From: a virus | Length of the DNA stretch: 26,946 bases | Virus record (IMG/VR): IMGVR_UViG_3300035204_001654 | Coordinates: 1-26,946 of that record | Reading direction: 5' to 3' (one strand) | Shown here: piece after piece, positions 1,793-26,046 of the stretch | How the letters are laid out: each line of letters opens with the position of its first letter | How positions within the stretch are numbered: position 1 is the first letter of the stretch | Made by a program: the position numbers and the translations under genes | The notes under the pieces: model-generated | The model's input: the letters and a program-made list of their open reading frames with translations, nothing else | What the model was told of the DNA's origin: nothing | The model's database searches: none

Positions 1793-2788
1793 TTAATTTT
1801 GATTTTCTAAAATTTTTAAGAGCTCTATTTCTTTTTGCACGATTTCAAATTGAGCTAATTTAAGATCTTTTAACTCTTTGATTATTGCACTCCTAGTTTT
1901 GTCTGAAGACAAATTAGGGTCGTCATGACTAGTTGGTGAATCTAAGGAGGGAATATAGATTTGGTTTTCGTCAATTATACCAGATTTTAAATAATTTATA
2001 AATAGTTGAGGGTATCTACATTCATGGATATTTTTAAATTGTATTATCTTGTGGATTCCTTCATGAGTTATGTTCCTTTCAAGGTTGACGTATTTTAATA
2101 AGAGAGATTTTTGCTTTTTCTTTTCTATAGATTCAGGCAACAAGACGTTTTGATTTGAAATAAATTTTTCAATGTCTAAATCCAGTGTTTTGCAGTCGCC
2201 TTGGAAATATTTAAACGCTTCAGCTCTATAAGCGAGAATCTTAAAATAAATTTCTAAATTTACATCTTTGTATAAACTCAAGAATTCTTCTTCATCATTT
2301 AAAAGGTTTTCTTTTGTGGCAGATAAATAAGAAATATAATCTCCCATTCCGCATAAATCTAAATCGAATAACCCAACAGATTCAAAAAAATTCCTATGAG
2401 CAGCCATGCTTCCCCAAGATGTAGATTCTCCTATTTTTACCAATTTATGATTATCCAATAATCTAGAGACTTCTTCAGTCCAACCGTCTTGTTTGATAAC
2501 CGTATCACAATCCATCCAAATGAGCTTTGTATATTCTGGTGGAACTTTTGAAGCTAACACATTAATTGCGTTTTCTCTAATCCACATAGGAAAATAAACT
2601 CTTTCAGAAAAATAATTATCATTACAGAATTTTTTTACCGCTGGAGAACTTCCTTCTGGAAATATTTCAATAATGTAGAAGGGTACACCTTGTTTTTCTA
2701 GACTTTCTTTAAATTTTAGAAACCCCTCCAATCTTAATGGGTTCGAATCAAACCCCAAAAAAGGAGAAATTACAGCAATGTCGTTCAT
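1793..2788 (-). CDS. Glycosyltransferase, GT-A fold, with C-terminal coiled coil
   Basis: This 331-residue protein looks like a GT-A nucleotide-sugar transferase. It opens with a beta strand, IAVISPFLGFD, and has KLIWMDCDTVI at about 89-98, where Asp93-x-Asp95 is the metal/nucleotide-sugar DxD motif. WGSMAAHRNFFESVGLFD follows, typical of the acceptor side in these folds. A downstream helical region (about 190-270) and a charged C-terminal helix (about 298-331) that may form a coiled coil follow. It starts one base after the tubulin-like gene stop, so it is translationally linked to it and to the Calx-beta poly-Thr gene upstream. That neighbourhood, far from the main glycan island, suggests it modifies a virion protein, though its donor and acceptor are unknown. 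Confidence 0.7.
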   Translation of the reverse strand: MNDIAVISPFLGFDSNPLRLEGFLKFKESLEKQGVPFYIIEIFPEGSSPAVKKFCNDNYFSERVYFPMWIRENAINVLASKVPPEYTKLIWMDCDTVIKQDGWTEEVSRLLDNHKLVKIGESTSWGSMAAHRNFFESVGLFDLDLCGMGDYISYLSATKENLLNDEEEFLSLYKDVNLEIYFKILAYRAEAFKYFQGDCKTLDLDIEKFISNQNVLLPESIEKKKQKSLLLKYVNLERNITHEGIHKIIQFKNIHECRYPQLFINYLKSGIIDENQIYIPSLDSPTSHDDPNLSSDKTRSAIIKELKDLKLAQFEIVQKEIELLKILENQN

Positions 2789-2789
2789 T

Positions 2790-3953
2790 TTAGCGTGGTC
2801 TATTCCGGGAAAGAATCTGTGGGTTTGACATATCTAATCCACCTATAGCAATAAAAAGATTCATGCTAGGCTTATCGCCACTGTAAATTCCACTATGAAG
2901 CGTACTACCTCTTTTCATGGTTCTATTCAAGTGTTCGAGTGCGTGATCCATGTTGGACTGAGAAAGTTCGTTTAAAATTTCTTCACTTGCTATTGTAATA
3001 ACTCCAGCTACGCTAGCTGTAGAAATATCCGTGAATCCTGCTAACAGGCTATTTTTGACATTATCTCTAATTATTCTAGAAAGCGCCACTGGGTCATCCC
3101 ACTGCTTTACTGGAGAAACCCCAAAAGCAACTATACCAGAATCAAGTATGGTCTGATAATCACTCTTATCGAACGAAGAGTAACTACTATCCTTGTTTGA
3201 AGTTAAATTAAACAAGTGAAATAATCCAGCCATGCTAGAGTTTGCTGTGCCCCAAAAATTAGAAATAGAAAGATTTGGATATAGTTGGCTTATCCTTTCG
3301 TTATCTAAAACGATGAGAGGAGATACAAGACCTTTGTTTTTTAAATTGATTGCTTCATGAAGAGCTTTGTTTGCGTTGGCTCTGACCTTGGCTCCTTCAG
3401 AATTTCTAGGTAATGTTAAAATTACCCCTACTTTCTGAGGCCCTCGTTTCAAAGTGGTGCTTAATTCATGAGCGGTTTGAACCAGTGGGTCTAACATTCC
3501 GCCTCCAGATCCTCCGCCTCCTCCAGCGCATACAAAAATTCTATCCCACTCTTCCCCAAAAGAATAGCGCATAAAATCTAATACGTCTTCTTTGTTCTCT
3601 TGAAATTTTATTTTTGCCAACTCTGGCTGTTTGCCCGCACCACCTTCACCTATGCAAAGTTTTTTTTCTACTTCAATTGAGTTTAAATCTTGCTCAGCGG
3701 TATTTACGACCGCCACCCTGTTATAACCCAGTTTATTGAAAGTCTGAGCGATTCTGCTTCCCCCTTGTCCTGCTCCAATAAAACAAAACTTGAAAGAAAC
3801 GTCTAGGTTATCTTCTATTTTGTTTTTATACAGCTTGTCGTCAGCAATCTCTTCTATTTGAGGGACAACTAAGTCTTCCGGTAAAGAAATATCTATATTG
3901 TCATAACCAAATGTCTGCGGTTGGTTTTCATTTTGCTCTTCATTTTCGTTCAT
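2790..3953 (-). CDS. FtsZ/tubulin-family GTPase
   Basis: This 387-residue protein belongs to the FtsZ/tubulin superfamily of polymerising GTPases. All key loops are visible: FIGAGQGGSRIAQTF (58-72, T1), NTAEQDL (84-90, T3-like), VCAGGGGGSGGGMLDPL (141-157, the tubulin signature T4), ILTLPRNSEG (178-187, T5), LIVLDNERI (213-221) and FDKSDYQTIL (261-270, T7). Asp262 and Asp265 align with FtsZ Asp209/Asp212, which drive GTP hydrolysis across the subunit interface. The first 50 residues form an acidic, Asn/Gln/Glu-rich extension. The C-terminal tail is short and basic (SRNRPR), without an obvious FtsA/ZipA-binding peptide. The frame stays open up to 4127, but the start at 3953 is preferred because it lies just outside the upstream gene and follows a GTGTAAT motif. 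It would form filaments in the infected cell. It looks closer to FtsZ than to PhuZ or TubZ by T7 and T4 sequence, but that needs a tree. Confidence 0.85.
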   Translation of the reverse strand: MNENEEQNENQPQTFGYDNIDISLPEDLVVPQIEEIADDKLYKNKIEDNLDVSFKFCFIGAGQGGSRIAQTFNKLGYNRVAVVNTAEQDLNSIEVEKKLCIGEGGAGKQPELAKIKFQENKEDVLDFMRYSFGEEWDRIFVCAGGGGGSGGGMLDPLVQTAHELSTTLKRGPQKVGVILTLPRNSEGAKVRANANKALHEAINLKNKGLVSPLIVLDNERISQLYPNLSISNFWGTANSSMAGLFHLFNLTSNKDSSYSSFDKSDYQTILDSGIVAFGVSPVKQWDDPVALSRIIRDNVKNSLLAGFTDISTASVAGVITIASEEILNELSQSNMDHALEHLNRTMKRGSTLHSGIYSGDKPSMNLFIAIGGLDMSNPQILSRNRPR

Positions 3954-3960
3954 AATATTT

Positions 3961-3975
3961 ATTACACTATTTTTT
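3961..3975 (-). promoter_or_regulatory. Candidate phage promoter or leader motif (GTGTAAT)
   Basis: The minus-strand sequence AAAAAATAGTGTAAT ends 7 bases before the ATG of the tubulin-like gene, in the 25-base gap after the Calx-beta gene. No Shine-Dalgarno sequence is visible between motif and ATG. Position and similarity to the sites at 1777-1790 and 16092-16106 suggest an independent promoter for the tubulin-like gene; function is inferred. Confidence 0.35.
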
Positions 3976-3978
3976 AGT

Positions 3979-6900
3979 TTAGCAACCAAGGGCGCTGCAA
4001 CACTCTGAACAATCGAGATAAGGGCCGGGGTAATACAGGCTGCCCACTGCTGTTCCGCCTTGTCCGGTTGCTGTAACTGTGCCGCAATAAAGTACTGCGC
4101 TGTTGTTATCCTCCCAGCCAACAACATCTCCTATACTCACTGGACCCATGTTGAATTGATCATCGATTACAACAGTTCCCGAAACGCCATCGCAATGGGT
4201 TACGTGATAGTTATTTCCTCCGGGTGCTCCGGTAGTCGTTGTTGTCGTATCATCATTTAAAATCGTAACTATGTGTGGATTTGTACTAGATATTGTCGCA
4301 GCGCCGTGTTCCGATTGTGGGTTAGTTAGGAGTATCTTAAAGGTTTCGTCCAATTCGACAGTTGTATCTCCAGTAATTACTACATCTATAGTCTCAGATT
4401 GTGATCCGTCAGCGAAATTCAAGGTGGTTGTGCTAATTCCGATGTAGTCGGTACCAGCTGTTGCGGTGTCATCGACTGTTTCATAATCTACTGAAGCCGT
4501 ACCCCACCCGTCGTCTCTTATAACTGTTACCGTATGAATCTGTGTCCCAGTATCTCCTTCTACCGTTACCTCTGATGACCACGAATCCCAAGAGAAACGT
4601 ACAGAATCATCATTTGTAATCGTTACTGTATGCACGCTAGTGCCTAATGCTACAGCGCCATATTGCGAAGTTTCGTTACTCAGAGTTACTGTAAATTCCT
4701 CGCTATCCTCATTAGTAGCATCATCTAAAATTACTACAGATATATCCATGGAGCCTACTCCGTCAGCAAAATTCAAGGTGCCGCTTGTAGCGGTGTAATC
4801 TGTTCCAGAGAATGCCGTGTTTGGCCACGCCCCGTTTGCCGTAACATAATTTACTGAAGCCGTACCATTTGTGTCGCTTCTGGTAACTGCTATCGTATGT
4901 GTAGTATTTGCTTCCGCCACAGAAGAAGTCGCTACAGAGAATCCTATTGTAGAAGTATCATCATTCGTAATCGTAACTACGTGTGGATTAGTTCCGGTTA
5001 TAGATGCTACGCCCACGGTTTGGGTTGGGTTCGATAAAGTGATATTAAAGGTTTCGTTATCTTCATTACCGGTATCTCCAGCAATTGTTATGGATATGGT
5101 TTGAGAAGTTACTCCTGCTGCGAAAGTTAAAGTTCCACTTGCAGTAGTATAATCTACCCCAGAGCTTGCTGTAATATCAGCCGTAACATAATCTACTGTA
5201 GCTGTACCATTGGTATTACCTGTTCTATTTACTGTTACTGTATGAGTAGATGTTCCGGCGTTTCCTTCCGCTATCGAAGAGGTCGCCAATGCAAATTCTA
5301 AATTAGTAGGCGCAGCGGTGGTAGTTGTCGTCGCAGCGGCGGTAGTTGTTGTAGTCGTAGTTGTAGTAGTCGTAGTTGTAGTAGTCGTCGTAGTTGTAGT
5401 GGTCGTGGTTGTAGTAGTCGTAGTTGTAGTAGTCGTAGTTGTAGTACAAGCGTGTTCCGTCATGGTTCCGCTCATATCGGATGACCCATTGCCCCAATTA
5501 GCGTCCCAAGGATATTCATCGTTGTATGAATGGGACTTATACCAAGTGCTATTACAATCACAGTCAGTCGGACTTGACCATTGAGCAAAACACCACACTC
5601 CCTGACTTGGCCCCCAGTGATAAGTAAAGAACAAGTACATTAACTCTGCTGAATTTGCTGCATTATTACTCCAAACGTATTTACCTTCGCACATATGGCC
5701 TGTTGGGGTCCAAGTGGTATTAAAGAACGAATGAGCAGCGAAGCCTGAAATACACAAATCAGAAACTGGCGATGCAGTTGTGGTAGTCGTAGTCGTAGTT
5801 GTGGTCGTTGAAAGATTACACGTAGCACCGCACGTAGGTCTACCGCTGCCGTCGTCATATCCGTATGCAATAATATAATTCGCCGGGAATGTGTCTGACG
5901 GATTTGCCGGACAGCGGATTGGGCCACCAGTGGAAGAATAAGCAACGACTGACAAATAATAAGTCCCCGCCGACAGCACTCCTGAAATTTGAGATCCATA
6001 TCCATCACTATCATAGCCAGCCCCTTGATTAGGATAGTCATCATTAGAATCAACCAAAACACCACTATGAGTATGAAGACACATCCAAATGTCGAAATTA
6101 TGCATTCCTCCGTATGGACCCGGAACACCATACTCATCGCAATTATTCGTAGCTAGTATATTCCCGGCTGCGTCAATTTCCACACCTGCGTCCATCGTAT
6201 TAAAAACATGCATCTTACCAGCGCCTTGCCCAGCTACGACTGTAAACTCAAATACGGTAGCTATGTTCCAGACTGCTTGCGACTGGATTCCAGTAGTTTG
6301 CCAAGTATCTGTTACTGGGCCATTGGGTAAAGCAGTAAACGGAAGAGAAGAAACATTTGAGTTGCAATCCGCGCCGGGGAATGGCGTTGTAGTTGGGGCC
6401 GGTGTTGTACATTGGTTTGAGGTAACAGTTAATGTTCCTCCCCACCCACTGTTTCCGGCTGTTTCGGCGGTCCACGATCCTACCTCGTATGGAACGACAA
6501 CGTTGTCGGTAGAACTGTAAGCCCATTGCCAAACACCTCCGTTATCCCAAGTTACGACCCATTGACTGGTTGCGTTAACCCATTGAATTTTTGCACTTCC
6601 GTCAGCTTTCCAATATTGAACTTTTCCATCGTTCCAAGATACTTGCCTGACGTATGTATCATTAATAATGTCTGCGTTACTTGGGGTTACTGAGTTGGTT
6701 GCTCCAGTTATACAAACTTCTAGCACGGGACCATAACCCGGAGGATCCGATTGACCGTCTGCAAAATAATAAGTAATGGTTACATAAGTGCTAGCATCTG
6801 TATACAGTGATTCCCCTTTGGGGACTACAATTGGAATTTTTGAGTGAGAGCTTCCAGAGCCTACGTACGCGATTAAGTCTCCTCCTCCGTTAACACCAGT

Positions 6901-7062
6901 GCCTAATTTATTGCCTGATCCAGAAGACACCAAAACGTCACAGACGACAATACTCTTTCCGGCTGGACAGGAAATTAACAGGCCGTCATTATTAGATAGC
7001 CAAGTAGGATCTCTGCTTATTACCGAGCCGGGGTCTTTTCTGCCTGTGTATTTATAGCTCAT
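3979..7062 (-). CDS. Large Calx-beta protein with poly-threonine linkers, probable virion fibre or decoration protein
   Basis: This 1027-residue secreted-style modular protein has no signal peptide. It contains: an N-terminal beta-rich domain (about 1-225); a short Thr/Pro linker; a second domain (about 235-415) ending in a Cys-containing stretch; an 11-Thr linker (419-429); a Cys/Trp-rich domain (about 433-539); a run of 35 Thr (540-574) followed by AAATTTTTAA; three Calx-beta repeats (about 588-701, 704-819, 822-938), each ending in VTI(T/L)NDD; a six-Thr linker; and a Cys-rich C-terminal domain ending in CSECCSALGC. Calx-beta domains are calcium-binding adhesion modules. Thr-rich linkers are typical of extended, O-glycosylated stalks. 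Lying directly after the portal gene, it is probably a virion surface fibre or head decoration that contacts host or surface polymers. The exact virion location is not shown. Confidence 0.8.
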   Translation of the reverse strand: MSYKYTGRKDPGSVISRDPTWLSNNDGLLISCPAGKSIVVCDVLVSSGSGNKLGTGVNGGGDLIAYVGSGSSHSKIPIVVPKGESLYTDASTYVTITYYFADGQSDPPGYGPVLEVCITGATNSVTPSNADIINDTYVRQVSWNDGKVQYWKADGSAKIQWVNATSQWVVTWDNGGVWQWAYSSTDNVVVPYEVGSWTAETAGNSGWGGTLTVTSNQCTTPAPTTTPFPGADCNSNVSSLPFTALPNGPVTDTWQTTGIQSQAVWNIATVFEFTVVAGQGAGKMHVFNTMDAGVEIDAAGNILATNNCDEYGVPGPYGGMHNFDIWMCLHTHSGVLVDSNDDYPNQGAGYDSDGYGSQISGVLSAGTYYLSVVAYSSTGGPIRCPANPSDTFPANYIIAYGYDDGSGRPTCGATCNLSTTTTTTTTTTTASPVSDLCISGFAAHSFFNTTWTPTGHMCEGKYVWSNNAANSAELMYLFFTYHWGPSQGVWCFAQWSSPTDCDCNSTWYKSHSYNDEYPWDANWGNGSSDMSGTMTEHACTTTTTTTTTTTTTTTTTTTTTTTTTTTTTTTTTTTAAATTTTTAAPTNLEFALATSSIAEGNAGTSTHTVTVNRTGNTNGTATVDYVTADITASSGVDYTTASGTLTFAAGVTSQTISITIAGDTGNEDNETFNITLSNPTQTVGVASITGTNPHVVTITNDDTSTIGFSVATSSVAEANTTHTIAVTRSDTNGTASVNYVTANGAWPNTAFSGTDYTATSGTLNFADGVGSMDISVVILDDATNEDSEEFTVTLSNETSQYGAVALGTSVHTVTITNDDSVRFSWDSWSSEVTVEGDTGTQIHTVTVIRDDGWGTASVDYETVDDTATAGTDYIGISTTTLNFADGSQSETIDVVITGDTTVELDETFKILLTNPQSEHGAATISSTNPHIVTILNDDTTTTTTGAPGGNNYHVTHCDGVSGTVVIDDQFNMGPVSIGDVVGWEDNNSAVLYCGTVTATGQGGTAVGSLYYPGPYLDCSECCSALGC
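5311..5445 (-). repeat. Imperfect Thr-codon microsatellite
   Basis: About 135 bases of imperfect trinucleotide/hexanucleotide repeat (mostly ACT, ACA, ACG, ACC on the coding strand) encode 35 consecutive Thr (5341-5445), then Ala3, Thr5 and Ala2. Codons are mixed in a semi-regular ACT-ACG / ACT-ACA alternation. Slippage or unequal recombination could change linker length without breaking the frame. Confidence 0.9.
5776..5808 (-). repeat. Second short poly-Thr codon tract
   Basis: Eleven consecutive Thr codons (residues 419-429 of the Calx-beta protein) with the same mixed ACT/ACG/ACC/ACA composition as the longer tract at 5341-5445. It separates two Cys-containing domains. Confidence 0.85.
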
Positions 7063-7063
7063 T

Positions 7064-9109
7064 TTACTTTTCTGTTATGCTGTGAAACAGTATGCTTGCC
7101 ATGAAAGTATCTAGCTGATGCTTGACGGCTATGCTTTCCACTTGTTTAACTTGTTCTGCGTTTTGGTCTACTGGTTTTTCGCAATACTTTGCTACGGACT
7201 CATTCCATTTGTTAGAAGCTTCGTTAGCTATAATTATATGGCTAATAGTTTGCGCTATTTCTTTTTGGTTTTTAGTTAATCTTGTTTTTTTGTGTCGTTT
7301 CCTGAGTTCTTTTTGCACTTCTTTTTCTAGCTCTTGAGACTTTATTATATTAGCTTTTACGTTTTCGAAACTAAAAATTTGCTTGGCCGCCACTCTTTCT
7401 TTTGTTTGAGGTTTCCCTTCTGTTCCCGACGGTCTTCCAACATTTGGAGAGGTAGTTTGACTTTTCTTTGCGGTTTTCTTTGCAGCTTTCTTGGTAGTTT
7501 TTTGGGGTGGTGTAACAGGCTTTTGCAATTCCGGATGAGCAATTTCTTGAGGAACCCAATCTTCCATTGCTGGGTTTTCTACGGGTGATCCACCAACGAG
7601 AGGAAAGTAGAGTCCTTCATCTCGATCATTTATAAATTTCCTTTGCGAATCTATTGAGTCATCTTTGTTCGGAAGCCTGTTAGAGTTCAGTGCCTCAAAA
7701 AGCTCCTCGGGGGTTAATAACCCTAATTCAGCCATGCGAGTATATACTCTATATTTTTCCGTATTATCTCTTAAGTGTATTTCATCAAAGCGAGGAGTGG
7801 GGTAATTTTTGAACCCAAGCGTTTTTGAAACTCTTTTGATTTCAGGAATAAGAAAATCGTTTAGAAAAGTTTGTCTGGCTTGTCGGAGTCTAGCTATGAA
7901 TACTTCTATTTTTCCTTGTTGGTTTGCAAATTTTTCTCCTCCGGCACCCACACCAGTAAGCATGTTGTTAAGTCCAGCATTGATATCAGAATTTACAACT
8001 TCATATTTTTTGGGGTCTAAAATATCACCGACTTGAGGTATTACAAATTTTGCATCCGTTGTATAGTCAGCTATAAGAACTCTCCCCACTGATTGGTTCT
8101 CGAAAAGAGCTTGCATCTTAATCAAGTTTTCTTGGTTTATCCCCCCCTTCTCTGGCTCTGCACCCATGGTTACAAGAAGAATCGCTTGTTGTACGGTTCT
8201 GGTTATAGCCATGTCCATTTTTTTAAGTTCTGCTTTATGGTTTATATCTTCTAACACTGGGTAACCCATGGGAACCGCAAACGGCTCGTAGTCTTGCTTT
8301 TTGTAGAATACCGCATCAAATCTATCTCCATCCAAGACCATGAGGACAGAGCTAGAAAAGGGGTTTCCTTTAATTTTCTTTTTTGTGTCAGCGTCAAGCG
8401 CATCAAATATCTCTTTGTCTTCCGTTGTCTTGGGGTTTCTTACTCTTTCTAGTTCGTAGTCCGTAAGAACTTTGTGATATTTTCTAGCCTGACTAAAATT
8501 TAATGAGCCAGAGATTTGTATGTCTGCTGGATTTAAGATTACATATCTAAATGGAATTTTAACAGCTTTTGCTTTGGCCCCAAAGGTTTGACTTATTTTT
8601 TTAACGTCAGACGGTTGAAGCTTAGCATCAAACCTATACAAAAAAACGTTTCCAGACCTGTAGTACTCCCTAAAGAATCTGTCCTGCAAGTCCCAAATAT
8701 TTATCTTCTTAAAAAGAGATTCGAAGAATTTTTGAGATTTCTTGCTGCCCCCCTCAAAGTATATGTCGCTTGAAGAAAATTCTGTCATTAAATCCACAGT
8801 GTTTCTAAACACGGAAAAATTATAATAAGCTTTTTGACACAAAATTATCGCATCCCTAATCGAAATACCACTTTGCCCTGAGCCCGTATAGGTTTTAAAC
8901 GGAATAAGCCCTGATTCAATGTTCGTAAATTTATCGGTTCTTTCTATATTTCCTGACTTGTTTCTTCTATAAGAAGTCCTACTGGGCGGGGTAGACGCAG
9001 AAGATTCGAAAGCCATTAGGGGCTCCGTTAAAGCTTTTTTAGTAGACTTTCTCGGCTTTCTTGGCTTTTTTGGTGCTGCGCCATTAGCGGTTTCTTTTTT
9101 TTCGTTCAT
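7064..9109 (-). CDS. Portal protein
   Basis: This 681-residue protein fits a phage portal: the dodecameric ring at one head vertex through which DNA is packaged and to which the tail attaches. Supporting features are its position directly after the large terminase, its length, and portal-like stretches: FREYYRSGNVFLYRFDAKL, a beta segment with VILNPADIQI, a helical stem ending in RLRQARQTFLNDFLIPEI, and LGFKNYPTPRFDEIHL. A Lys/Pro-rich N-terminal tail (about 1-28) precedes the fold. The C-terminus beyond about 520 is an added region with a Pro/Lys linker (TTKKAAKKTAKK) and a helical end (about 585-681). The start has no strong Shine-Dalgarno; the next gene begins one base after its stop. Confidence 0.8.
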   Translation of the reverse strand: MNEKKETANGAAPKKPRKPRKSTKKALTEPLMAFESSASTPPSRTSYRRNKSGNIERTDKFTNIESGLIPFKTYTGSGQSGISIRDAIILCQKAYYNFSVFRNTVDLMTEFSSSDIYFEGGSKKSQKFFESLFKKINIWDLQDRFFREYYRSGNVFLYRFDAKLQPSDVKKISQTFGAKAKAVKIPFRYVILNPADIQISGSLNFSQARKYHKVLTDYELERVRNPKTTEDKEIFDALDADTKKKIKGNPFSSSVLMVLDGDRFDAVFYKKQDYEPFAVPMGYPVLEDINHKAELKKMDMAITRTVQQAILLVTMGAEPEKGGINQENLIKMQALFENQSVGRVLIADYTTDAKFVIPQVGDILDPKKYEVVNSDINAGLNNMLTGVGAGGEKFANQQGKIEVFIARLRQARQTFLNDFLIPEIKRVSKTLGFKNYPTPRFDEIHLRDNTEKYRVYTRMAELGLLTPEELFEALNSNRLPNKDDSIDSQRKFINDRDEGLYFPLVGGSPVENPAMEDWVPQEIAHPELQKPVTPPQKTTKKAAKKTAKKSQTTSPNVGRPSGTEGKPQTKERVAAKQIFSFENVKANIIKSQELEKEVQKELRKRHKKTRLTKNQKEIAQTISHIIIANEASNKWNESVAKYCEKPVDQNAEQVKQVESIAVKHQLDTFMASILFHSITEK

Positions 9110-9155: not shown

Positions 9156-10982
9156 TTACACCATTCTTGGCACAAAAGTAGCAGCTCCTTCATCAAGTTT
9201 ATAATTTTGCATGTCAAAGTAACATTTTACTGCCCAATTCGCAAGTAGCAAGCCTGTATAATTATCTTTTCTGGCTCTAGTTGCGCTGGTATTTCTTTTT
9301 AAATGCTGGGGGAGATCAAACGTTTGTGTCCCTCTAGCTGTTGTTTTTACCTCTACCAAAGCGCATTGTTTTTTTACTTGATATACTAAATTATCTTGAG
9401 TTTCTATAAACATTCCTAAATTTTCTTCATTAATTTGCTTTAAATTAATCTTGTACGTGCTTTGTTTATCGAATTCAGAGCCGTTTGCTGAAGTCCTTGA
9501 CGCAAACCATATTTTTTTATAGTCAATATTAGCCTGTAAAAGCTCGTTAGCCTTCCTTATCCAATCGCTTGAAAAAACCTGATTAAAAACTATTTGTTTA
9601 TTTTCTTTATTATAGGCTCTTTTTAAATCTCTGATTTGTTTAATATAATCTACCCCCTCTTTATTAGAATCAAATTCAATTGTTTTTAAATTAATTTTAT
9701 TATCTATAAAGAGTTTGGAGTTGTTCGCTGCCTCAAGGAACATGTCTGCTCCAGCGTTGTCTATACATATTAAAGCTGGATCAAAGTTATCTAATACATA
9801 GTTAAGGTATTGAACGTGTTTATTTAAATTACCTAATCCTGCATAATTATGAACTAATGTAGCCATTTCTTTTTCTTCGTCTACCTCCATTATTGACATG
9901 GCAAAATAGTCAGCGCTTGGACTATCGCTCATATTAGGGTCGATGCCTACTACATATTTTTTATCTTGCCTTCCTTTTATAAGAGTCGTTGGTTCTTCCC
10001 CATCTGGAATAGTGCAAGCATGCATTTTTATCGCGCTAAAATAACTATCGCTTCCATCAGTAAACATGGCACAATACTCCCGCTGGAAAGAGGCGTTCGA
10101 AGTTCCTCCGTCTTGAGCAGCCTCGATTACAGTTTGGTCAATCATGTGTTCTGGCAAAGCTTCATACCCCATCTGTGAAATGAAATAAGAAGAGTCTGAT
10201 CGCTCTTCTTTATAAATATGGTTACCCCAGTCTTTATAAGTCTTGTATAAATTTTCAAACGTATAAGAAGCAGAGGATAAAGCTATCATTTTCGAATCAT
10301 TTTCAAACACCATTCTATCCTCCTCTTCCATATGTCCTGACTCGATTAGCTTGTCTTCCATTTCCCTAATTTCTATGCGTTCTTTCATGTTTTGCGGAGC
10401 AACCAAGAATGGCATAAGAACCGTGTTAATTAAATCTTCAGGTAACAAAAGATACTCATCCAATAAAAGTACGTTTGCGCGAAAGCCACGAATTTTTTCT
10501 CCATTAAGAGGGATAGCTGTAATCGTTCCTCCATTGATAGACCATTCAAATTGATCATTACGTTTTACTTTAGATCCAAAACATTGAGCTAATAACTCCG
10601 CACCTTTTGACTCTACTAATTTTTCTAAGTTACTAAATATAAATCTCGCCGTACGAAAAGTAGGTCCAGCAACAAGAATTTTAGTTCCCGGATTAAAGAT
10701 GCATTGCAAAAAACAAAAAACAGAAGCTATAAAAGTTTTACCACAACCACGACCCCAGACACACATGCTAAAGTTTCTATTCATCATGCCTCTAAGAGTT
10801 ACTTCTTGGAAGGGGGCTAGCTTAATGCCTGAGATTAGCTCTGTCGTAAAACCTAGATTGGCGTGTAAAAATTTTGCCAGAGTTATCTTGGCTTCTTTGT
10901 CTGACATAAAGCCTTCGATTTCCATCATCTTTTCATTGATGTTTTCAGGCTTAACCTCGTATTTTTCAGGACAGTACCACAT
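9156..10982 (-). CDS. terL: Terminase large subunit
   Basis: This 608-residue DNA-packaging motor has an N-terminal ATPase and a C-terminal RuvC-like nuclease. The ATPase shows a Walker A-type VWGRGCGKTFIASVF (75-89) and Walker B VLLLDEY (171-177, Asp175-Glu176). IALSSASYTFENLY (about 233-246) fits the coupling motif. The nuclease shows KYVVGIDPNMSD (Asp348) and LICIDNAGAD (Asp408), with further acidic residues near the C-terminus. The start codon overlaps the upstream ERCC4 gene stop by one base (TAATG), and GAAGG lies upstream as ribosome binding site. It would dock on the portal encoded next. The length and motif set match phage large terminases of the T4-like or large myovirus type. Confidence 0.92.
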   Translation of the reverse strand: MWYCPEKYEVKPENINEKMMEIEGFMSDKEAKITLAKFLHANLGFTTELISGIKLAPFQEVTLRGMMNRNFSMCVWGRGCGKTFIASVFCFLQCIFNPGTKILVAGPTFRTARFIFSNLEKLVESKGAELLAQCFGSKVKRNDQFEWSINGGTITAIPLNGEKIRGFRANVLLLDEYLLLPEDLINTVLMPFLVAPQNMKERIEIREMEDKLIESGHMEEEDRMVFENDSKMIALSSASYTFENLYKTYKDWGNHIYKEERSDSSYFISQMGYEALPEHMIDQTVIEAAQDGGTSNASFQREYCAMFTDGSDSYFSAIKMHACTIPDGEEPTTLIKGRQDKKYVVGIDPNMSDSPSADYFAMSIMEVDEEKEMATLVHNYAGLGNLNKHVQYLNYVLDNFDPALICIDNAGADMFLEAANNSKLFIDNKINLKTIEFDSNKEGVDYIKQIRDLKRAYNKENKQIVFNQVFSSDWIRKANELLQANIDYKKIWFASRTSANGSEFDKQSTYKINLKQINEENLGMFIETQDNLVYQVKKQCALVEVKTTARGTQTFDLPQHLKRNTSATRARKDNYTGLLLANWAVKCYFDMQNYKLDEGAATFVPRMV

Positions 10983-11941
10983 TATAAAACCTTCGTATCA
11001 TACGCGTATTGGAGGTCTATTTTTTTGTATGCGCATCCACTAAAAAATATTTTTTTAATAACCCTTTCTGCTTCCTTTCTTCCTCCTACAAACAGAAATT
11101 GAATATGTGGATATTTTTGTATTAGCTCTCTTACGTTATGGAATATGTATTCAGGAGTTGCTTTTATTTTTTTTGATATATGAGGTAAATATTTAAAACT
11201 GACCGCGTGAGACAAGGTATCTTCCACCAAAATAACTAGATTGATTTTTTCGTCTTTTGCCCTCATTATCTCTTTTTCAAATCTATCTAAATTTTTGACG
11301 CTCATGGTAGATATAAAGTCAGCTAAAGATTTTCGCTCTATATAACAATTACATGTTAGCTTAGGCTCACTAAAAGTATAGTCCCCTACGGACAAAGTTG
11401 TAGATCTAGTGCGATAATCTTCAAACTTTAAGGGTAATTGCTCTCTAGTATCTATATGTATGGAGTATTGTGGTTTAGCATACTCCTTGCCTTCAGCTAT
11501 TTCTGTGGGTAATTGGTATTTATTTTCAAACCCCATTTCTTCACAGACCTTGTAGTATCCATCTAAAATTTTTCTTAGGTATTGAATGGGAGGAGAAAGA
11601 ATCGTTCTAAGTTCTACTTGAGTTGGGGTGTAAATAAGGCCTTTGTCGTTTTTTCTTTTGAGTAAAATATTTTTACAATAAGTTTTAGCTTTTTCTTCTT
11701 CAACCGATTTTAACCAGAGCCTGAGATTTGTTCTGGAGTTAAAGTCTGTAGAAAAATATTGTTCTAAAGTTTTGTATTTAATTATGTTATTGTCGTGAAG
11801 ATCATGCCTTGGAAAATATTTTTGGTAATACCCTACTACCCTTAAGTCATGAGCTTTAAGGTGTGCGTGCAATTGTCTATGCGTTTCAAATTCTTTTTGA
11901 CATGCTTGACAAGTTGGTTCTGGAACAATGACCTTACTCAT
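10982..11941 (-). CDS. C2H2 zinc finger plus ERCC4-type nuclease
   Basis: The 319-residue protein has two parts. Residues 11-31 form a C-x2-C-x12-H-x3-H zinc finger (Cys11, Cys14, His27, His31), followed by YYQKYFPRHDLHD and a helical region. Residues 158-319 match the ERCC4/XPF-Mus81 nuclease fold: IHIDTREQLPL (Asp164, Glu167), LSVGDYTF (Asp187) and IERKSLADF, which is the family ERKxxxD-like motif (Glu202-Arg203-Lys204). XPF-type nucleases cut branched DNA. Here, directly upstream of and overlapping terL, it may resolve branched replicative DNA before packaging, the job done by endonuclease VII in T4. A selfish homing-type nuclease is an alternative. GGGGAGAAG upstream of the ATG is a strong ribosome binding site. 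Confidence 0.82.
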   Translation of the reverse strand: MSKVIVPEPTCQACQKEFETHRQLHAHLKAHDLRVVGYYQKYFPRHDLHDNNIIKYKTLEQYFSTDFNSRTNLRLWLKSVEEEKAKTYCKNILLKRKNDKGLIYTPTQVELRTILSPPIQYLRKILDGYYKVCEEMGFENKYQLPTEIAEGKEYAKPQYSIHIDTREQLPLKFEDYRTRSTTLSVGDYTFSEPKLTCNCYIERKSLADFISTMSVKNLDRFEKEIMRAKDEKINLVILVEDTLSHAVSFKYLPHISKKIKATPEYIFHNVRELIQKYPHIQFLFVGGRKEAERVIKKIFFSGCAYKKIDLQYAYDTKVL

Positions 11942-13031
11942 CTAAAACTTCTCCCCTGCTTATGCCTATGATCCTACATTTAATTTCGTCCATGCCGCTT
12001 AAGTTTTCTATTTCATCTGCTACAGCCTTCTTTCTTATGTTGGCTAGCTGTATTAATTTCTTTCTACTTTCTTCTTCTTTCCAGAGCTGAACCAAGTTTA
12101 GTACGCTGGCATTTTCTTTTATCTGGTTCTTAAGTTTGTCGCTTCTTTTTTGTTTTAAATCGCTTAAGAGTTTTTGTTGTCGGTTTATGCATTGATTATA
12201 TTCTGTTTGAGCAGAGCTAATAGCGTCTACTAATGACATGGCTATTCTGCGACCCTCCGTATCTTCTGCGGCGTTATCTAGTAAATCCTGAAGTCTTTCT
12301 ATTCTTCTTTGAATGCTTGCGGCGATAATTACTTCAGTGCACATTACGATATATTGATCTACTTCTTCTTGAGACAAGTCTGGTTTATCATGGGTATACC
12401 TAACGAAACTACTTTCGAAAAGCTCTCTATCTGTTTGAGAGGAGTAAGTGTTTATCTGATGAGAGAACCTAAAGGTGCTTAAGTAATTAATTAAAGCATC
12501 TATATTTTTTTTAACAGAACTTGTAATCTTGCTTTTATCAATTGCATTATTAACGTATCTATTAACTGTGTTTACTGTTTTATGAAAAGTTTCTGGAGGC
12601 CTGTAAGCTTCGTTTGGTACTTCGTTTGGATTCTCGTATGGTTGTAAATCTAGAGTTTTTATATATTCATTAACCGTCCTAACTTCTTGGTGAAGATTTG
12701 TAAGTTCATTGTTGGCAAATACAACGCACGCTATTTCTCTCCCGTTCATCATAGAAGCATTGTTTTCTACGAATTGCTTTTGTTCTGCTGTTAAGCTTAT
12801 TTTTTCTTTAGCTTGATATTCGTGCGCCCCATGAGCTTTTATTTTCCTTGTTGCAAGAAATGCTTTTATTTCTCTTCCCTCTTTACTTCTCCCGTCCAGC
12901 TCTGGTCTGTCGGGGTAAGCTATTCTTATTAGCTCCAGTAAAGCAGGAGGATTTTCTAGTCTAGAATTCCATTCCTCAAGGATTTTTTCCTTTTGCTCTT
13001 CGCTTAAAGAGTTATGTTGAGGCGAGCTCAT
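11934..13031 (-). CDS. Unknown helical protein, possible small terminase or DNA-binding packaging factor
   Basis: I do not recognise this 365-residue protein. It is almost entirely alpha-helical and charged. The N-terminus (about 6-60) has PPALLELIRIAYPDRPELDG followed by KEGREIKAFLATRKIKAHG, which could be a helix-turn-helix. A second such segment follows (LTAEQKQFVENN to EIACVVFANNEL, about 80-115). The C-terminal half (about 230-340) is rich in coiled-coil-like heptads. It overlaps the ERCC4 gene by 8 bases and the SET gene by 20 bases, and is two genes upstream of terL, where a small terminase is often found. DNA recognition plus oligomerisation would fit such a role, but no defining motif is visible. 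AGGAAG abuts the ATG. Confidence 0.55.
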   Translation of the reverse strand: MSSPQHNSLSEEQKEKILEEWNSRLENPPALLELIRIAYPDRPELDGRSKEGREIKAFLATRKIKAHGAHEYQAKEKISLTAEQKQFVENNASMMNGREIACVVFANNELTNLHQEVRTVNEYIKTLDLQPYENPNEVPNEAYRPPETFHKTVNTVNRYVNNAIDKSKITSSVKKNIDALINYLSTFRFSHQINTYSSQTDRELFESSFVRYTHDKPDLSQEEVDQYIVMCTEVIIAASIQRRIERLQDLLDNAAEDTEGRRIAMSLVDAISSAQTEYNQCINRQQKLLSDLKQKRSDKLKNQIKENASVLNLVQLWKEEESRKKLIQLANIRKKAVADEIENLSGMDEIKCRIIGISRGEVLDE

Positions 13032-13638
13032 CTTCCTTTTTTTCTTCTTTTTCTTCTTTTTTTAGTTCGACTTGTTCCTCTTTTTCCTTTTGTTTTCTTT
13101 TTTTTTCCTGCGACTTCTCAGCTTCTCCCCAAGGGATCCAATATTCGTCTCCATAGTCCATATAAAGCTCTTCCCCGGGGCTGATGTTCCGTATTGCTAT
13201 TATCAAAAACATTGGTTCGTTCGGTACTGGCCACATATAACAATTGTATCCCGCTTCAAGAATGTTTTTCATTTTTTCTTCTTCGTTCCAGCTTTCGTCA
13301 TATTCTAATCTATCGGCGTGATTTCTGGCGTCATTTATAAATCCCCCTAGACCCATTTCTTTTTTACAAAGCGCTGGGTGGCAATCTATCCACGTACCTG
13401 AAGCTTGGTGCTGCGCGCCGTATATACACACGGGCTTCTTGAAGCCACTACTCATAGTGTAGCTATATCTTTGCAATACCTGTTTATACTCTTCTTCCCC
13501 CTCGAAGGTTTCTCCTTTGTATTCGCATATAGGCGATCCCGCCCCTATCTCAGCCCCAGTAAATATCCCAACCCCCGCTCCTTGTCGCAGCGATGGGTTA
13601 AAATATAGTCCATTAGCAAGTTTATCGTTTATTTTCAT
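13012..13638 (-). CDS. SET-domain lysine methyltransferase
   Basis: The 208-residue protein is a compact SET domain with a highly charged tail. Visible SET features: GAGVGIFTGAEIGAGSPICEY (20-40, SAM-binding entry; quoted residues include the GxG-type turn), WIDCHPALCK, GLGGFINDARNHADR (97-110, the usual RFxNHS motif with Asp in place of His), YNCYMW (131-136) and ISPGEELYMDYGDEYW (152-167) with the catalytic Tyr162. Residues 174-208 are a Lys/Glu-rich extension. SET enzymes methylate protein lysines using SAM. It overlaps the sigma factor stop (ATGA) and a packaging-side gene, so the target may be a phage structural protein, the host RNA polymerase or a nucleoid protein; the target is unknown. 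GAGGT lies about 9 bases before the ATG. Confidence 0.85.
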   Translation of the reverse strand: MKINDKLANGLYFNPSLRQGAGVGIFTGAEIGAGSPICEYKGETFEGEEEYKQVLQRYSYTMSSGFKKPVCIYGAQHQASGTWIDCHPALCKKEMGLGGFINDARNHADRLEYDESWNEEEKMKNILEAGYNCYMWPVPNEPMFLIIAIRNISPGEELYMDYGDEYWIPWGEAEKSQEKKRKQKEKEEQVELKKEEKEEKKEDELAST

Positions 13639-15289: not shown

Positions 15290-16081
15290 TTACTCCTCTT
15301 CTTCCTCAGCGAATTTATGAATTTTTTTAATTAAGAATTTAACTAATTCTGACCTCATTATGTCTTCTTCCGAAAACTCAAATGTATACACCCCCATATT
15401 AACGCTTTCTTCGTCGGAGAAAATTTGAGATAGACCCTCGAACCCTCCCTGAACGTTTTCGTTTTTTAAGTCAGTTTGCATTGGGTCAGCTAGAATAAAA
15501 CACCTACATCCTTCTCCCATCCTAGTAAGCACGGTTATAATTTCCTTTATGGAGCTATTTTGAGCTTCGTCAAGAATTACGCACTTGTACTTCCAATTCA
15601 TCCCTCTTGCGAAGTTCACAGGAAACATTGAAACCCTTCCTTCGTTTTCTAGTTTTTCCGCCTTGCTTTCAGTTAACAATTCGTCAAGCTTATCGAGAAA
15701 TGGCAAATTATAAAACCTTAGTTTTTCGTTTGCGTCCCCCGGAAGATATCCCAAGCTTTTATCAGAGCTTTCTACGGCAGACCGCAAATACATTATGTCG
15801 TCTGCAGCCTTCATGTTTAAGAGCTGAAGACCACAATATACAGAAAGTAGGGTTTTTGCTGTCCCAGCAGGACCATTAACGAAAACAATATTAGTGGAAG
15901 GATCTAAAGCTACTCTAAAAAATTCTTTTTGCTTTTCGGTCCAAGGAAATTGATTGAGCTTAATTCGTCTTTTGATGGGATTAGCGGTTATTTGAGTTTT
16001 TTTCGCATTTGATTCAGACAGGTCTTCGGCCAGTTTTCTCCCTCCACGAATTTTTACTTTTGAAGGATCATGTTCTTTCAT
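15290..16081 (-). CDS. phoH: PhoH-family ATPase
   Basis: The 263-residue protein is a PhoH-like P-loop ATPase. Walker A is NGPAGTAKTLLS (69-80) and Walker B is CVILDEAQN (167-175). YLRSAVESSDKSLGYLPGD (98-116) and LADPMQTDLKNENVQGG (about 197-213) are characteristic PhoH stretches. PhoH proteins are common in marine phages and are thought to act on RNA, often as the ATPase partner of an RNase; their phage role is not settled. The C-terminus is a Glu-rich tail. The start overlaps the WbqC-family gene by 14 bases, and an A-tract/GTGTAAT motif lies 10 bases upstream inside that gene, suggesting its own promoter. Confidence 0.88.
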   Translation of the reverse strand: MKEHDPSKVKIRGGRKLAEDLSESNAKKTQITANPIKRRIKLNQFPWTEKQKEFFRVALDPSTNIVFVNGPAGTAKTLLSVYCGLQLLNMKAADDIMYLRSAVESSDKSLGYLPGDANEKLRFYNLPFLDKLDELLTESKAEKLENEGRVSMFPVNFARGMNWKYKCVILDEAQNSSIKEIITVLTRMGEGCRCFILADPMQTDLKNENVQGGFEGLSQIFSDEESVNMGVYTFEFSEEDIMRSELVKFLIKKIHKFAEEEEE

Positions 16082-16745
16082 TCTGAAAAAGATTACACTC
16101 TTTTTTAAGTAATGGATAATAAGATCTTGTGTTCATCAAAGAATCAATAAAAGAATATTTGCTTTCATAAGAGACAAAGTGGCTTAAATTTATGCCATTT
16201 TTTAAAAAAATATTTTTATTCAAGTTGTTTTTATAAAGCGAGTAATAGGTTGTTGCCCCTTCTTTTTTGCATATATTTAAGATTTTACTTTCTACGGACC
16301 CCTTTATATTTCCATATTTAACAGAAGAAAATGAAAACTCTGTATCACAACCAAGTGCGCTACACACTCTGAAGACGCTGTAGGCAGAAAGGTGACAGAC
16401 ATTGTCTACAGGCAATTGAATTATGCTTTTTACAAGGTTAATAGCTGCGGGGTAATTATAGCAATCGTTATGCTCTAAGTGAACCATCTTAATAAAGTGC
16501 CTTTTCCACTTTTCGCCTTCTTTGATTTTAATTTCTTTTATTTGAGATCGTTCTCCATCGTCTAAGTTATTTATTGGCACTCTAAAGTAATAGTCTTTTG
16601 ATTTTACTTTTAATAATGTTTTGTTCACCCAGCTTTTGTTATTGTAAAATACATCGTCAAGAAAAATGACTTTGTCCATTTTCTGGACTAAATCATAGTA
16701 AGATTTAGGCGGAAAGAAGTTTGGTTGTAAAATAGCCAGTTTCAT
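16068..16745 (-). CDS. WbqC-family protein
   Basis: The 225-residue protein matches the WbqC family found in O-antigen and polysaccharide loci. The signature start is MKLAILQPNFFPPKSYYDLV followed by MDKVIFLDDVFYNNKSWVNK, and later WKRHFIKMVHLEHN and LSAYSVFRVCSALG. WbqC proteins are linked by context to amino-sugar or amino-acid decoration of surface glycans, but their reaction is not firmly known. Length is typical (about 200-240). GAGGAG upstream of the ATG is a strong ribosome binding site, and it starts just after the oxygenase gene. It closes the glycan island before PhoH. Confidence 0.8.
   Translation of the reverse strand: MKLAILQPNFFPPKSYYDLVQKMDKVIFLDDVFYNNKSWVNKTLLKVKSKDYYFRVPINNLDDGERSQIKEIKIKEGEKWKRHFIKMVHLEHNDCYNYPAAINLVKSIIQLPVDNVCHLSAYSVFRVCSALGCDTEFSFSSVKYGNIKGSVESKILNICKKEGATTYYSLYKNNLNKNIFLKNGINLSHFVSYESKYSFIDSLMNTRSYYPLLKKECNLFQNERT
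16092..16106 (-). promoter_or_regulatory. Candidate internal promoter motif (GTGTAAT)
   Basis: The minus-strand sequence AAAAAAGAGTGTAAT lies inside the 3' end of the WbqC-family gene and ends 10 bases before the phoH ATG. It is the third close copy of the motif seen before the lipoprotein and tubulin-like genes. It could let phoH and the genes after it be transcribed apart from the glycan island. Coding constraint does not explain it well, since the A-tract and GTGTAAT match intergenic copies, but it could be chance. Confidence 0.35.
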
Positions 16746-16747
16746 AG

Positions 16748-17722
16748 CTACTCCTCGACATCAAAGAAGAACAGATGAAAAAGTCTTGAGTCTCCTAGGT
16801 TCGACCCAAAATATTCAGAGGCAGCGTGAATTAATTGCGCGTCCCAAATAACAAGTCTATTGAAAACATTTCCGATAACATCTACGGTTTCAAATTTGGT
16901 TTTGTCATAAAACCCAGCACTGAATATTTCAAATGTTAAGTGTTCTTTTGATTTATTTCGTTCTTTAACGACCTCGTCATTAGGCGATTCCCTTAGACCG
17001 TTAACCTTGCTTTTGTAAAAAGTTGTACCACATTCGGGCGGAGCGTCTGGGGTTAAGTACACAACAGCCGCATAGGATTGAGGGTCAACGTGATAAACTA
17101 TAGCATCCTCAGAAGTGCAAAACTGGAAAACGCCATTAGCTCCATGCTTGTCCCAATTGGTAATTTTTTTCTGAAGTAAATTCTCCAAGGCCTTTTTAAT
17201 TTCCTTCGGTTTGAAGCTCTCTTCAGTTCTTTGCCCTTTGTGATATTCTATATGTGGGCTGTAAGAGCTTCTTGATAATGCAAATTCTCTAACGGCATGA
17301 GGATTTTCGTAGAAGTTGTCTACGACAATTGCATTTGTGTCAAACGTTTTGTTTATTTTAAAGTTCGCTTCTATTTCCCTCAACTGACTAGAAACAGGTT
17401 CTTCGATCTTTTTTGCGTTCCTCCATTCTTCGTCGTGTAAAATCTGCAGAAAAATATCTTCTTTGCTTTTTATTTTTTTCGGCACGTTTATAGAAAATCC
17501 AGAATTTAAGAATTTTTTGTTGTTTTTGTAAAACTCAAACACATCTTTTCTTTCACCCTTGTATACGCCAGAAAAAGAGATGTCTTCGCCAGCAAATAAT
17601 CTTACGTTTTTTACATCAACAGAGTCCGAAGCACACCACCCCTTCACAAGAGTGTTATTGTCTTCGGAAAAAGAAATTTCGTCAACGTGAATCTTAACGT
17701 CTTTAATTAGCGATCCGTGCAT
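16748..17722 (-). CDS. 2-oxoglutarate/Fe(II) oxygenase with N-terminal glycan-associated domain
   Basis: The 324-residue protein has two parts. Residues about 5-100 resemble the small beta-sandwich module attached to many glycosyltransferases (VKGWCASDSVDVKNVRLF, ERKDVFEFY, SGFSINVP). Residues about 130-324 look like a DUF6445/prolyl-hydroxylase-like dioxygenase: AIVVDNFYENPHAVREFA, then YHVDPQSYAAVVYLTPDAP with the iron pair His211-x-Asp213, and VIWDAQLIHAASEYFG with the distal His299. Such enzymes hydroxylate proteins or small molecules using 2-oxoglutarate and oxygen. In this island it may hydroxylate a sugar, a glycan-bearing residue or a virion protein. The start overlaps the rmlB 3' end by 20 bases and has no strong ribosome binding site, so coupling is likely. 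Confidence 0.72.
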   Translation of the reverse strand: MHGSLIKDVKIHVDEISFSEDNNTLVKGWCASDSVDVKNVRLFAGEDISFSGVYKGERKDVFEFYKNNKKFLNSGFSINVPKKIKSKEDIFLQILHDEEWRNAKKIEEPVSSQLREIEANFKINKTFDTNAIVVDNFYENPHAVREFALSRSSYSPHIEYHKGQRTEESFKPKEIKKALENLLQKKITNWDKHGANGVFQFCTSEDAIVYHVDPQSYAAVVYLTPDAPPECGTTFYKSKVNGLRESPNDEVVKERNKSKEHLTFEIFSAGFYDKTKFETVDVIGNVFNRLVIWDAQLIHAASEYFGSNLGDSRLFHLFFFDVEE

Positions 17723-18656
17723 AGTGTTTTATTGTTTTTTTGAGGCCACTTTTTAGTTTCATTGAAGGTTTCCATTTTAATTCTTTAGATATTTTTTTGT
17801 TATTAATTGCATACCTAAAGTCATGCCCCAATCTATCTTTTACGAAAGAAATATATTCATTAGGTTCCTTTTTTAATATTTTACAAATCTCATGAATTAT
17901 TTCTAAATTTGTTTTTTCACACTCTGCACCCACTAGATAAGTCTCCCCTATCTTACCCTTGGTAAGAACTTTCCATAAAGCTTTACAATGGTCCTCTACA
18001 TAAATCCAATCTCGTATATTGTCCCCTTTGCCGTAGACAGGTATCTTACATTCATTTAACAAAGAGTCTACAACTGTAGGTATAAATTTTTCCTTATGTT
18101 GATTTGGGCCGTAATTATTACTACAATTAGAAATGGTTATAGGTAGGCCATGAGTATGAAAATAAGACCTTGCTAGGAAATCCGAAGCAGCCTTCGAAGC
18201 GGAATATGGATTTCTTGGGTCATACGGAGTATCCTCCGAAAACTTTTCGTCTCCTCTATCTAGGTGACCATATACCTCGTCTGTAGATACGTGATGAAAT
18301 CGCTTTGTTTTGAATTTTAAGGCCGCTTTGAGCAGGTTGTGTGTCCCGAGTACATTTGCCAATAAAAATGCGTCAGCGTCCAATATAGAGTTATCTACGT
18401 GTGTCTCTGCAGCGAGATGGACTACGTGTGTTATGTCGTGCTTGTAAAATGTATCGTACACTTTTTGATAGCACGATAAGTCGTATTTCTCTAAAAGATA
18501 CTTTGGGTGTTTGTGGATTTTTTTCGTATTTTCCAAAGACCCAGCGTAAGAAAGACAATCTACGTTAATGAGTTTGTAAACTTGTTTTTTGTCTATAACA
18601 TGCTCTATAAAATTAGAGCCGATAAACCCACATCCTCCTGTTACTAGTAAGTTCAT
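17703..18656 (-). CDS. rmlB: dTDP-glucose 4,6-dehydratase
   Basis: The 317-residue protein is an extended short-chain dehydrogenase of the RmlB type. It shows the NAD-binding TGGCGFIGSNF (6-16), VHLAAETHVDNS (79-90), the catalytic Thr125-Asp126-Glu127 in STDEVYG, the Tyr151-x3-Lys155 pair in YSASKAASDF, NCSNNYGPNQ and DWIYVEDHCKA. The reaction turns dTDP-glucose into dTDP-4-keto-6-deoxyglucose, the branch point for rhamnose and 4-amino-4,6-dideoxy sugars. The frame is open to 18689, but the start at 18656 matches the family start and follows the methyltransferase stop by two bases. No RmlA, RmlC or RmlD is in the window; the two aminotransferases and acyltransferases instead point to an amino-sugar product. 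Confidence 0.92.
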   Translation of the reverse strand: MNLLVTGGCGFIGSNFIEHVIDKKQVYKLINVDCLSYAGSLENTKKIHKHPKYLLEKYDLSCYQKVYDTFYKHDITHVVHLAAETHVDNSILDADAFLLANVLGTHNLLKAALKFKTKRFHHVSTDEVYGHLDRGDEKFSEDTPYDPRNPYSASKAASDFLARSYFHTHGLPITISNCSNNYGPNQHKEKFIPTVVDSLLNECKIPVYGKGDNIRDWIYVEDHCKALWKVLTKGKIGETYLVGAECEKTNLEIIHEICKILKKEPNEYISFVKDRLGHDFRYAINNKKISKELKWKPSMKLKSGLKKTIKHYARIAN

Positions 18657-18658
18657 TT

Positions 18659-19327
18659 TTATTTCTCGCATTCTATAAGAGCGCAACAACCGTTGACTCC
18701 TGCTTTACACCCTGCCGTGTACCACTCTTTTTCTGGGGTATATAATCTGTATTTTCCTTTGATCACGGTTTTCATGTTTTCTATTGCCTCCGCCCCCTTT
18801 TCATGTCCTCCTTGTTCATTATAGTAATCATGGGTAATAAAACAAAATTTATCGGCCGCAAGTTCATAAATTCTCTGGCAATCTTCTAAAGAGATGCTAG
18901 CGTCATTAAATACAAAATCAATACCACTTAGCAAATCCTCACTCATTAGGAAGTCACTACTCCAAGTATTTGGATTTATGTTGATTCTTTCTGCCTCCTC
19001 ACAGTCAATTTTAAGAAACATATCTATCTCTGATATGTTGTCGTTTCCCCAGCTTACTTCGTCGCAAGTATGAATAACTGCCCCAACACCTTTTGTGGCG
19101 AAAGACATGGCGTAGGCTGTGTTTCCGACCCAAGTTCCTATCTCTAAGATTTTTTTAGGTTTTCTTTCTATACATAGCAATTGCAAAAATTTACAATCCG
19201 CCGAACCTGTTGTCCCGTTCCCTTGGCATGCCTCACTACACTTTAAATGTATTGGTAGCCAGCTATCAAACACTTCGTTTAATTCTTCTTCGTGTTTATC
19301 CAGCAGATTTTCTATTAGAGTTTTCAT
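18659..19327 (-). CDS. SAM-dependent methyltransferase, O-methyltransferase-like
   Basis: The 222-residue protein has a class I methyltransferase core: KILEIGTWVGNTAYAMSFAT (59-78) is the SAM-binding motif, HTCDEVSW is the acidic second strand, and IDFVFNDASISLEDC (about 135-149) is the strand-4 region. The N-terminus (about 1-50) is helical with several Cys (SEACQGNG, ADCKFL) and could cover the active site. HDYYNEQGGHEKGAEAI follows. It resembles sugar or small-molecule O-methyltransferases and class I enzymes that cluster in glycan loci. It starts one base after the preceding glycosyltransferase stop with no clear Shine-Dalgarno, so it is coupled. The acceptor is unknown; methylation of a sugar is the likely role. 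Confidence 0.72.
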   Translation of the reverse strand: MKTLIENLLDKHEEELNEVFDSWLPIHLKCSEACQGNGTTGSADCKFLQLLCIERKPKKILEIGTWVGNTAYAMSFATKGVGAVIHTCDEVSWGNDNISEIDMFLKIDCEEAERININPNTWSSDFLMSEDLLSGIDFVFNDASISLEDCQRIYELAADKFCFITHDYYNEQGGHEKGAEAIENMKTVIKGKYRLYTPEKEWYTAGCKAGVNGCCALIECEK

Positions 19328-19328
19328 T

Positions 19329-20614: not shown

Positions 20615-20615
20615 T

Positions 20616-22339: not shown

Positions 22340-22354
22340 AAGATCGGCATTTGG

Positions 22355-23712: not shown

Positions 23713-23717
23713 AGTTG

Positions 23718-26037: not shown

Positions 26038-26046
26038 ATTAAATTA

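Follow-up and report, generated by a model that had tools for sequence, protein, structure and literature searches.

The DNA analysed here (26,946 nt of IMG/VR virus record IMGVR_UViG_3300035204_001654; the whole stretch is referred to as the window) carries on its minus strand a gene for a 387-residue GTPase of the tubulin/FtsZ superfamily, which we call Z (2790..3953, stop codon included; ATG at 3953, stop codon at 2790-2792). The mechanical open reading frame opens upstream at 4127, but it is with the 3953 ATG that the starts of homologues coincide. Upstream of Z on the same strand lie a fibre/adhesin-like gene with Calx-beta repeats (3979..7062; 1.7e-50), a putative portal gene (7064..9109), the gene of the terminase large subunit (9156..10982; Pfam Terminase_6N 3.4e-08, PHROG 1.9e-22), and a gene for an ERCC4-type nuclease with a C2H2-like finger (10982..11941; Pfam/PHROG and locus comparison). 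Downstream, one base from the Z stop codon, is a gene of 331 aa (1793..2788; minus strand) that appears glycosyltransferase-like by eye only and gave no match in Pfam and PHROG searches. The window further contains a phage gene with a SET domain (protein lysine methyltransferase-like; 13012-13638, Pfam E 1.5e-10), and at 16068-26850 a long run of sugar/surface-polymer genes that by eye look like epimerase, aminotransferase, acyltransferase, and glycosyltransferase genes, which is more than phages normally carry.

Z is a tubulin/FtsZ-superfamily protein. It matches Pfam Tubulin PF00091 (E 4.9e-10, 40.4 bits, curated cut-off 33), as do all nine family members scanned (9/9), and a PDB sequence search returned TubZ (8.6e-17) and FtsZ (1.9e-11). 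The AlphaFold model is confident (pLDDT 84.9, pTM 0.83), contains the nucleotide and activation domains, and superimposes on TubZ over 328 aligned residues with an rmsd of 2.6; in the Foldseek/VIA alignment, the Z scores were 35.4 for TubZ, 34.4 for CetZ2, and at most 30.9 for FtsZ. The FtsZ model TIGR00065 was matched with 2.6e-15 and 56.6 bits, which is far under its equivalog cut-off of 295.2, and a PHROG search gave no family that names Z. The preliminary description had already proposed a superfamily GTPase with intact catalytic loops and had named a tree and a structure prediction as checks; both were run, and the fold, together with the Pfam and PDB matches and the conserved loops, keeps Z inside the superfamily.

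IMG/VR scans revealed at least 191 relatives of Z, and 84 of these were collected, window excluded; the viral Z sequences are 46-81% identical to the window protein. Conservation was counted over 84 sequences, namely the window protein and 83 full-length viral relatives, and 58 residues are invariant among them, including residues of the T1, T4, and T7 loops and both catalytic Asp residues. The T1 loop G60-A-G62-Q-G-G65 (3759..3776, minus strand) has G60, G62, Q63, and G65 in 84/84 sequences, and the same holds for G146, G147, G148, G150, and G152 of the glycine-rich T4 tubulin signature (residues 144-152; 3498..3524, minus strand), which aligns with GGGTGTG of FtsZ. In the T7 synergy loop F261-D262-K-S-D265 (3159..3173, minus strand), F261, D262, and D265 are likewise found in all 84 sequences and occupy the columns of FtsZ NVDFADV, so that the earlier alignment of Asp262 and Asp265 with the catalytic Asp pair of FtsZ was correct. 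The family is under strong purifying selection, with a median dN/dS of 0.022 (88 pairs) and a value of 0.09 between the window copy and its relative in locus L011. As the superfamily GTPase loops are intact in Z, GTP-driven polymerisation is likely.

Residues 1-50 (3804..3953, minus strand) form an acidic N-terminal extension with the motif D21-I-x-x-P25 ... P31, in which D21 is found in 81/84, P25 in 82/84, and P31 in 84/84 sequences. The acidity noticed in the window protein is a property of the whole family: the viral extensions have net charges of -17 to -4 and a median length of 49 aa. Residues 1-20 have low pLDDT in the AlphaFold model, and the N-terminus, acidic, disordered, and carrying a conserved motif, is likely the docking site. 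The basic C-terminal tail, also considered unusual before, is by contrast confined to the window copy; among the viral proteins, 3-30 residues (median 15) follow the last strand, and their sequence is not conserved. The C-terminal linker and peptide of FtsZ are absent from Z, and nothing like the E. coli DIPAFL was seen in the tails compared. The C-terminal helix H11 (and tail) that has been described for TubZ and PhuZ (PMC3678025) is absent as well, the model showing only a 4-residue helix at 379-382, and no long tail follows. Z also differs from FtsZl1 and FtsZl2, which possess a large C-terminal region with a coiled coil or of about 300 aa (PMC2875224), whereas in Z no more than about 30 aa follow the core.

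Relationship to known tubulins

Trees were built with TubZ references from plasmids, none of them from toxin-bearing plasmids or phages, and with CetZ and eukaryotic tubulin left out. In the larger tree, the viral Z proteins, including the one of locus L101, form one clade (99/98), to which chromosomal proteins from Phycisphaerae and Omnitrophota are joined at 99/98. TubZ stands next to this group with a modest support of 88-89 and forms several branches outside the Z family, the FtsZ clade (99/96) excludes Z, and PhuZ (100/100) is far apart. In a trimmed tree, FtsZ, TubZ, and PhuZ were again separate clades, with four TubZ at 99/94 without Z; there the order of the three was not fixed, the chromosomal branch was not firmly united with viral Z, and a sister position to Z was rejected neither for FtsZ (AU p 0.156) nor for PhuZ (p 0.625).

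It had been claimed that Z is more FtsZ-like than PhuZ or TubZ. This was right in setting Z apart from PhuZ, but as far as TubZ is concerned the claim as stated had to be abandoned, since TubZ is nearer in the PDB sequence search, in the Foldseek/VIA comparison of folds, and in the larger tree. The likeness to FtsZ is limited to two respects, the T7 D-x-x-D pair and the missing long H11. Z shares with FtsZ this pair, a short core that ends after the last strand, and the match to TIGR00065, but it lies outside the FtsZ clade and lacks the linker and the FtsA/ZipA-binding peptide. TubZ, the tubulin of type III plasmid/prophage partition, matches Z best in both sequence and structure and is, like Z, borne by mobile elements; it nevertheless constitutes a separate clade, several TubZ have Glu instead of Asp as the second T7 residue, and Z has neither H11 nor the long tail nor a TubR-like partner that we could find. 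PhuZ, the jumbo-phage tubulin, is likewise phage-encoded and of the same superfamily, but it is a very distant branch with a different T4 motif, and the PHROG PhuZ model phrog_4733 matched only 1/9 Z-family members (E 0.17).

None of the phage tubulin families described to date includes the Z family, whose carriers are uncultured viruses of bacteria. A tblastn search for isolate relatives in phages gave only gp138 of Bacillus phage G (27% over 44%) and weak faecal contigs. The top viral structure match is A0A6J5RW92 in BFVD (452 aa; E 1.3e-32, 26% identity), a protein of an uncultured Caudovirales phage that was deposited as 'FtsZ Cell division GTPase' and for which we found no study. We also found no report on the viral Z family in the open-access phage, tubulin, and FtsZ literature, which is no proof of novelty.

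The head gene block, with and without Z

The preliminary description placed Z between a fibre-like and a glycosyltransferase gene. This holds for the window, but these neighbours are not constant; over the 84 loci, it is the putative portal gene that is constant. Its family lies upstream of Z in 82/84 loci, mostly with nothing between, and in 58/82 loci portal gene and Z are separated by -8 to 26 nt. Where there are inserts, they are a fibre or other gene, as in the window, whose fibre gene is found in this position in its own lineage only; in L007 and L008 it is missing, and Z directly follows the portal gene. The position of the 331-aa gene is taken by other genes in other Z loci. The order of the block is ERCC4 nuclease, terminase, portal, Z, variable genes, a 165-aa, a 499-aa, and a 190-aa gene, and a putative capsid gene, with the portal and capsid labels being derived from weak profile matches (for the portal gene, PHROG) plus position. 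The 499-aa gene had no profile match, and from its size and place one may guess at a protease or scaffold. In L009, which represents another phage lineage and whose Z is 50% identical, tblastn to Salmonella phage Arash identifies the second gene upstream of Z as a portal gene, and the portal–Z association therefore crosses phage lineages; the portal relatives Arash and D69 have no annotated Z beside the portal gene. The association is lacking in L010, with a divergent Z in a phage with different neighbours, and in L101, which comes from a genome bin yet lies among phage DNA polymerase and Clp genes. Spearman correlations of distances were 0.42 for Z and portal, which is similar to the 0.46 for portal and terminase, and 0.07 for Z and the putative capsid gene.

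Z is not found in all phages that have this block. A terminase-anchored scan, which is unbiased towards Z, gave 46 loci that include the portal gene and at least 1.5 kb beyond, and 14/46 have Z whereas 32/46 lack it there. In several of the latter, the terminase gene, the portal gene, a gene termed g3, the 499-aa gene, and the capsid gene keep their order, from which Z is cleanly absent. No Z was found anywhere in ten such records, contigs of 174.5 kb and 97 kb included, by the same type of search (PF00091) that was positive in contigs with Z. An obligatory part of head assembly is thereby ruled out for this phage group; as the sister phages keep the block order without it, Z is a clade-specific addition. 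On the terminase tree, its presence and absence needs two changes, so that at least two gains or losses of Z are implied. Three long contigs with Z and two without have 23 gene families in common, and only Z and three other families are present in all three of the former and in neither of the latter.

A promoter of its own, which had been suspected for Z, is not supported: a sigma-70 scan showed nothing between the Z start and the fibre gene, and the whole region has 3 sites, with 3.8 expected by chance. An element consisting of an A-tract and GTGTAAT is located just 5' of several genes (3957-3974, 1773-1790, 1210-1223, and 16092-16105 in the window), and it is common to some close relatives just 5' of Z; in L007, L008, and L013, it falls inside the 3' end of the portal gene. 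It is possible that this is a phage promoter, and the pattern occurs 11 times in the window with 6.8 expected, which is not significant. In some loci (L048-L086, cluster 21), a gene for a ClpP-like head maturation protease is encoded near Z, downstream (PHROG 1.4e-47). A conserved predicted lipoprotein of ~72 aa (LVGCGSTRVVFVDT...), which may be an outer spanin or have another role in lysis, is encoded some 430 nt downstream of Z in L054 and in 20 further loci. It is the sole small gene after Z in the long contigs, and with an occurrence in only 21/84 loci we rejected it as a dedicated partner gene.

Possible roles of Z

We tentatively favour, with chances somewhat short of even, a GTP-driven Z filament that is made with the head proteins and that gathers or positions proheads or phage DNA for packaging. 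For FtsZ and TubZ, it is established that the T7 loop completes the GTPase site of the neighbouring subunit. Since nucleotide pocket and T7 pair are invariant, the same may apply to Z: GTP binding would drive head-to-tail protofilaments, and each T7 loop would complete the GTPase site of the subunit that comes next. From the linkage with the terminase and portal genes, one may expect the filament to be synthesised late, together with the head proteins, and the acidic N-terminal peptide could then engage the head, the portal/terminase, or a DNA-bound partner. Because sister phages make their heads from the same set of genes although they lack Z, it would be an add-on for greater efficiency. From gene order, function can be concluded only weakly, and co-transcription may reflect timing alone; the missing distance tracking between Z and the capsid gene and the retention of the head block in sister phages without Z count against a head role.

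The strongest competitor, which we nevertheless regard as unlikely, is that Z filaments have no specific link to heads and, by pushing, bring phage DNA or a replication compartment to a defined site in the cell. PhuZ positions in this way in jumbo phages (PMC7950403), it belongs to the same superfamily, and the genomes of phages with Z reach at least 158-162 kb; however, Z lies outside the fully supported PhuZ clade, is practically not recognised by phrog_4733, and lacks the long PhuZ C-terminal tail, and phiKZ PhuZ (gene 39) is encoded outside the head block. Less probable still is that Z partitions a plasmid-like phage genome in a carrier or lysogenic state, as does the TubZ by which phage c-st partitions its plasmid-prophage (PMC7950403). 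TubZ being the best match of Z would fit, but the plasmid TubZ loci examined carry a small gene directly upstream, where Z loci have the portal gene. A profile from these upstream proteins detected no TubR-like partner among 84 viral loci and in three long contigs, although a diverged partner could escape; beside Z there are two-copy repeats only and no iteron array as a centromere, and Z has neither H11 nor the long tail of TubZ.

Two further explanations are improbable to a similar degree. Phage inhibitors of FtsZ exist, and a superfamily member could copolymerise with or cap host FtsZ or another divisome filament, thereby blocking division and enlarging the cell. At an identity of about 20% and lacking the C-terminal peptide of FtsZ, however, Z appears unlikely to mix with host FtsZ, the intact GTPase site and invariant T7 loop fit a working polymer better than a poison, and the location in the head block suggests late expression. 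Z as a structural or scaffold component of prohead or virion, rather than a dynamic filament, would agree with its place between putative portal and capsid genes, but not with sister phages that have the same block without it, nor with the full conservation of the catalytic pair, which implies nucleotide turnover.

The well-described phage tubulins are of two kinds, TubZ, which serves partition, and PhuZ, which serves centring and the traffic of capsids. With a separate and common family that is linked to the head block, it would become testable whether cytoskeletal capsid transport arose repeatedly and outside nucleus-forming phages, and the related phage pairs with and without Z offer a ready natural comparison.

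Relatives on bacterial chromosomes

The nearest cellular kin of Z are uncharacterised chromosomal proteins of Phycisphaerae and Omnitrophota (L102-L118), with 32-38% identity over most of the length. PF00091 matches were found in 8/198 Phycisphaerae genomes and in 1/97 Omnitrophota genomes, each Z-like where examined, and most sampled genomes of both groups have no such match; Planctomycetes have been reported to lack FtsZ (PMC5147048). The chromosomal genes are flanked by housekeeping genes, for example for phosphoglycerate kinase, ribulose-phosphate epimerase, and signal peptidase. Unlike the acidic extensions of the viral proteins (-17 to -4), the N-tails have net charges of +4 to +85, and most are basic, with abundant Lys, Arg, and Ala as in histone H1, and up to ~240 aa long (an example is the L109 protein, encoded at 7749-9071), a composition that suggests DNA binding. 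These proteins are possibly nucleoid-bound tubulins in bacteria without FtsZ. This branch matters separately, as the few PF00091-positive Phycisphaerae and Omnitrophota genomes carry a Z-like protein, mostly with a DNA-binding-like tail.

Viral and cellular branches can be combined into one picture, which as a whole is rather doubtful: Z would represent a third class of phage tubulins, genetically tied to the portal and not to a DNA-binding adaptor or a phage nucleus, whose GTP-driven filaments organise head assembly and packaging, and the cellular kin with histone-like tails would be nucleoid-bound tubulins of bacteria otherwise without FtsZ.

A second Phycisphaerae paralogue (L241, L242, and L243) no longer has the glycines of T1 and T4 or other nucleotide loops but keeps the T7 FD..D, and it is possible that it is a pseudo-GTPase partner or cap. 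In the Phycisphaerae contigs L114 and L118, two Z-like genes are adjacent, in tandem.
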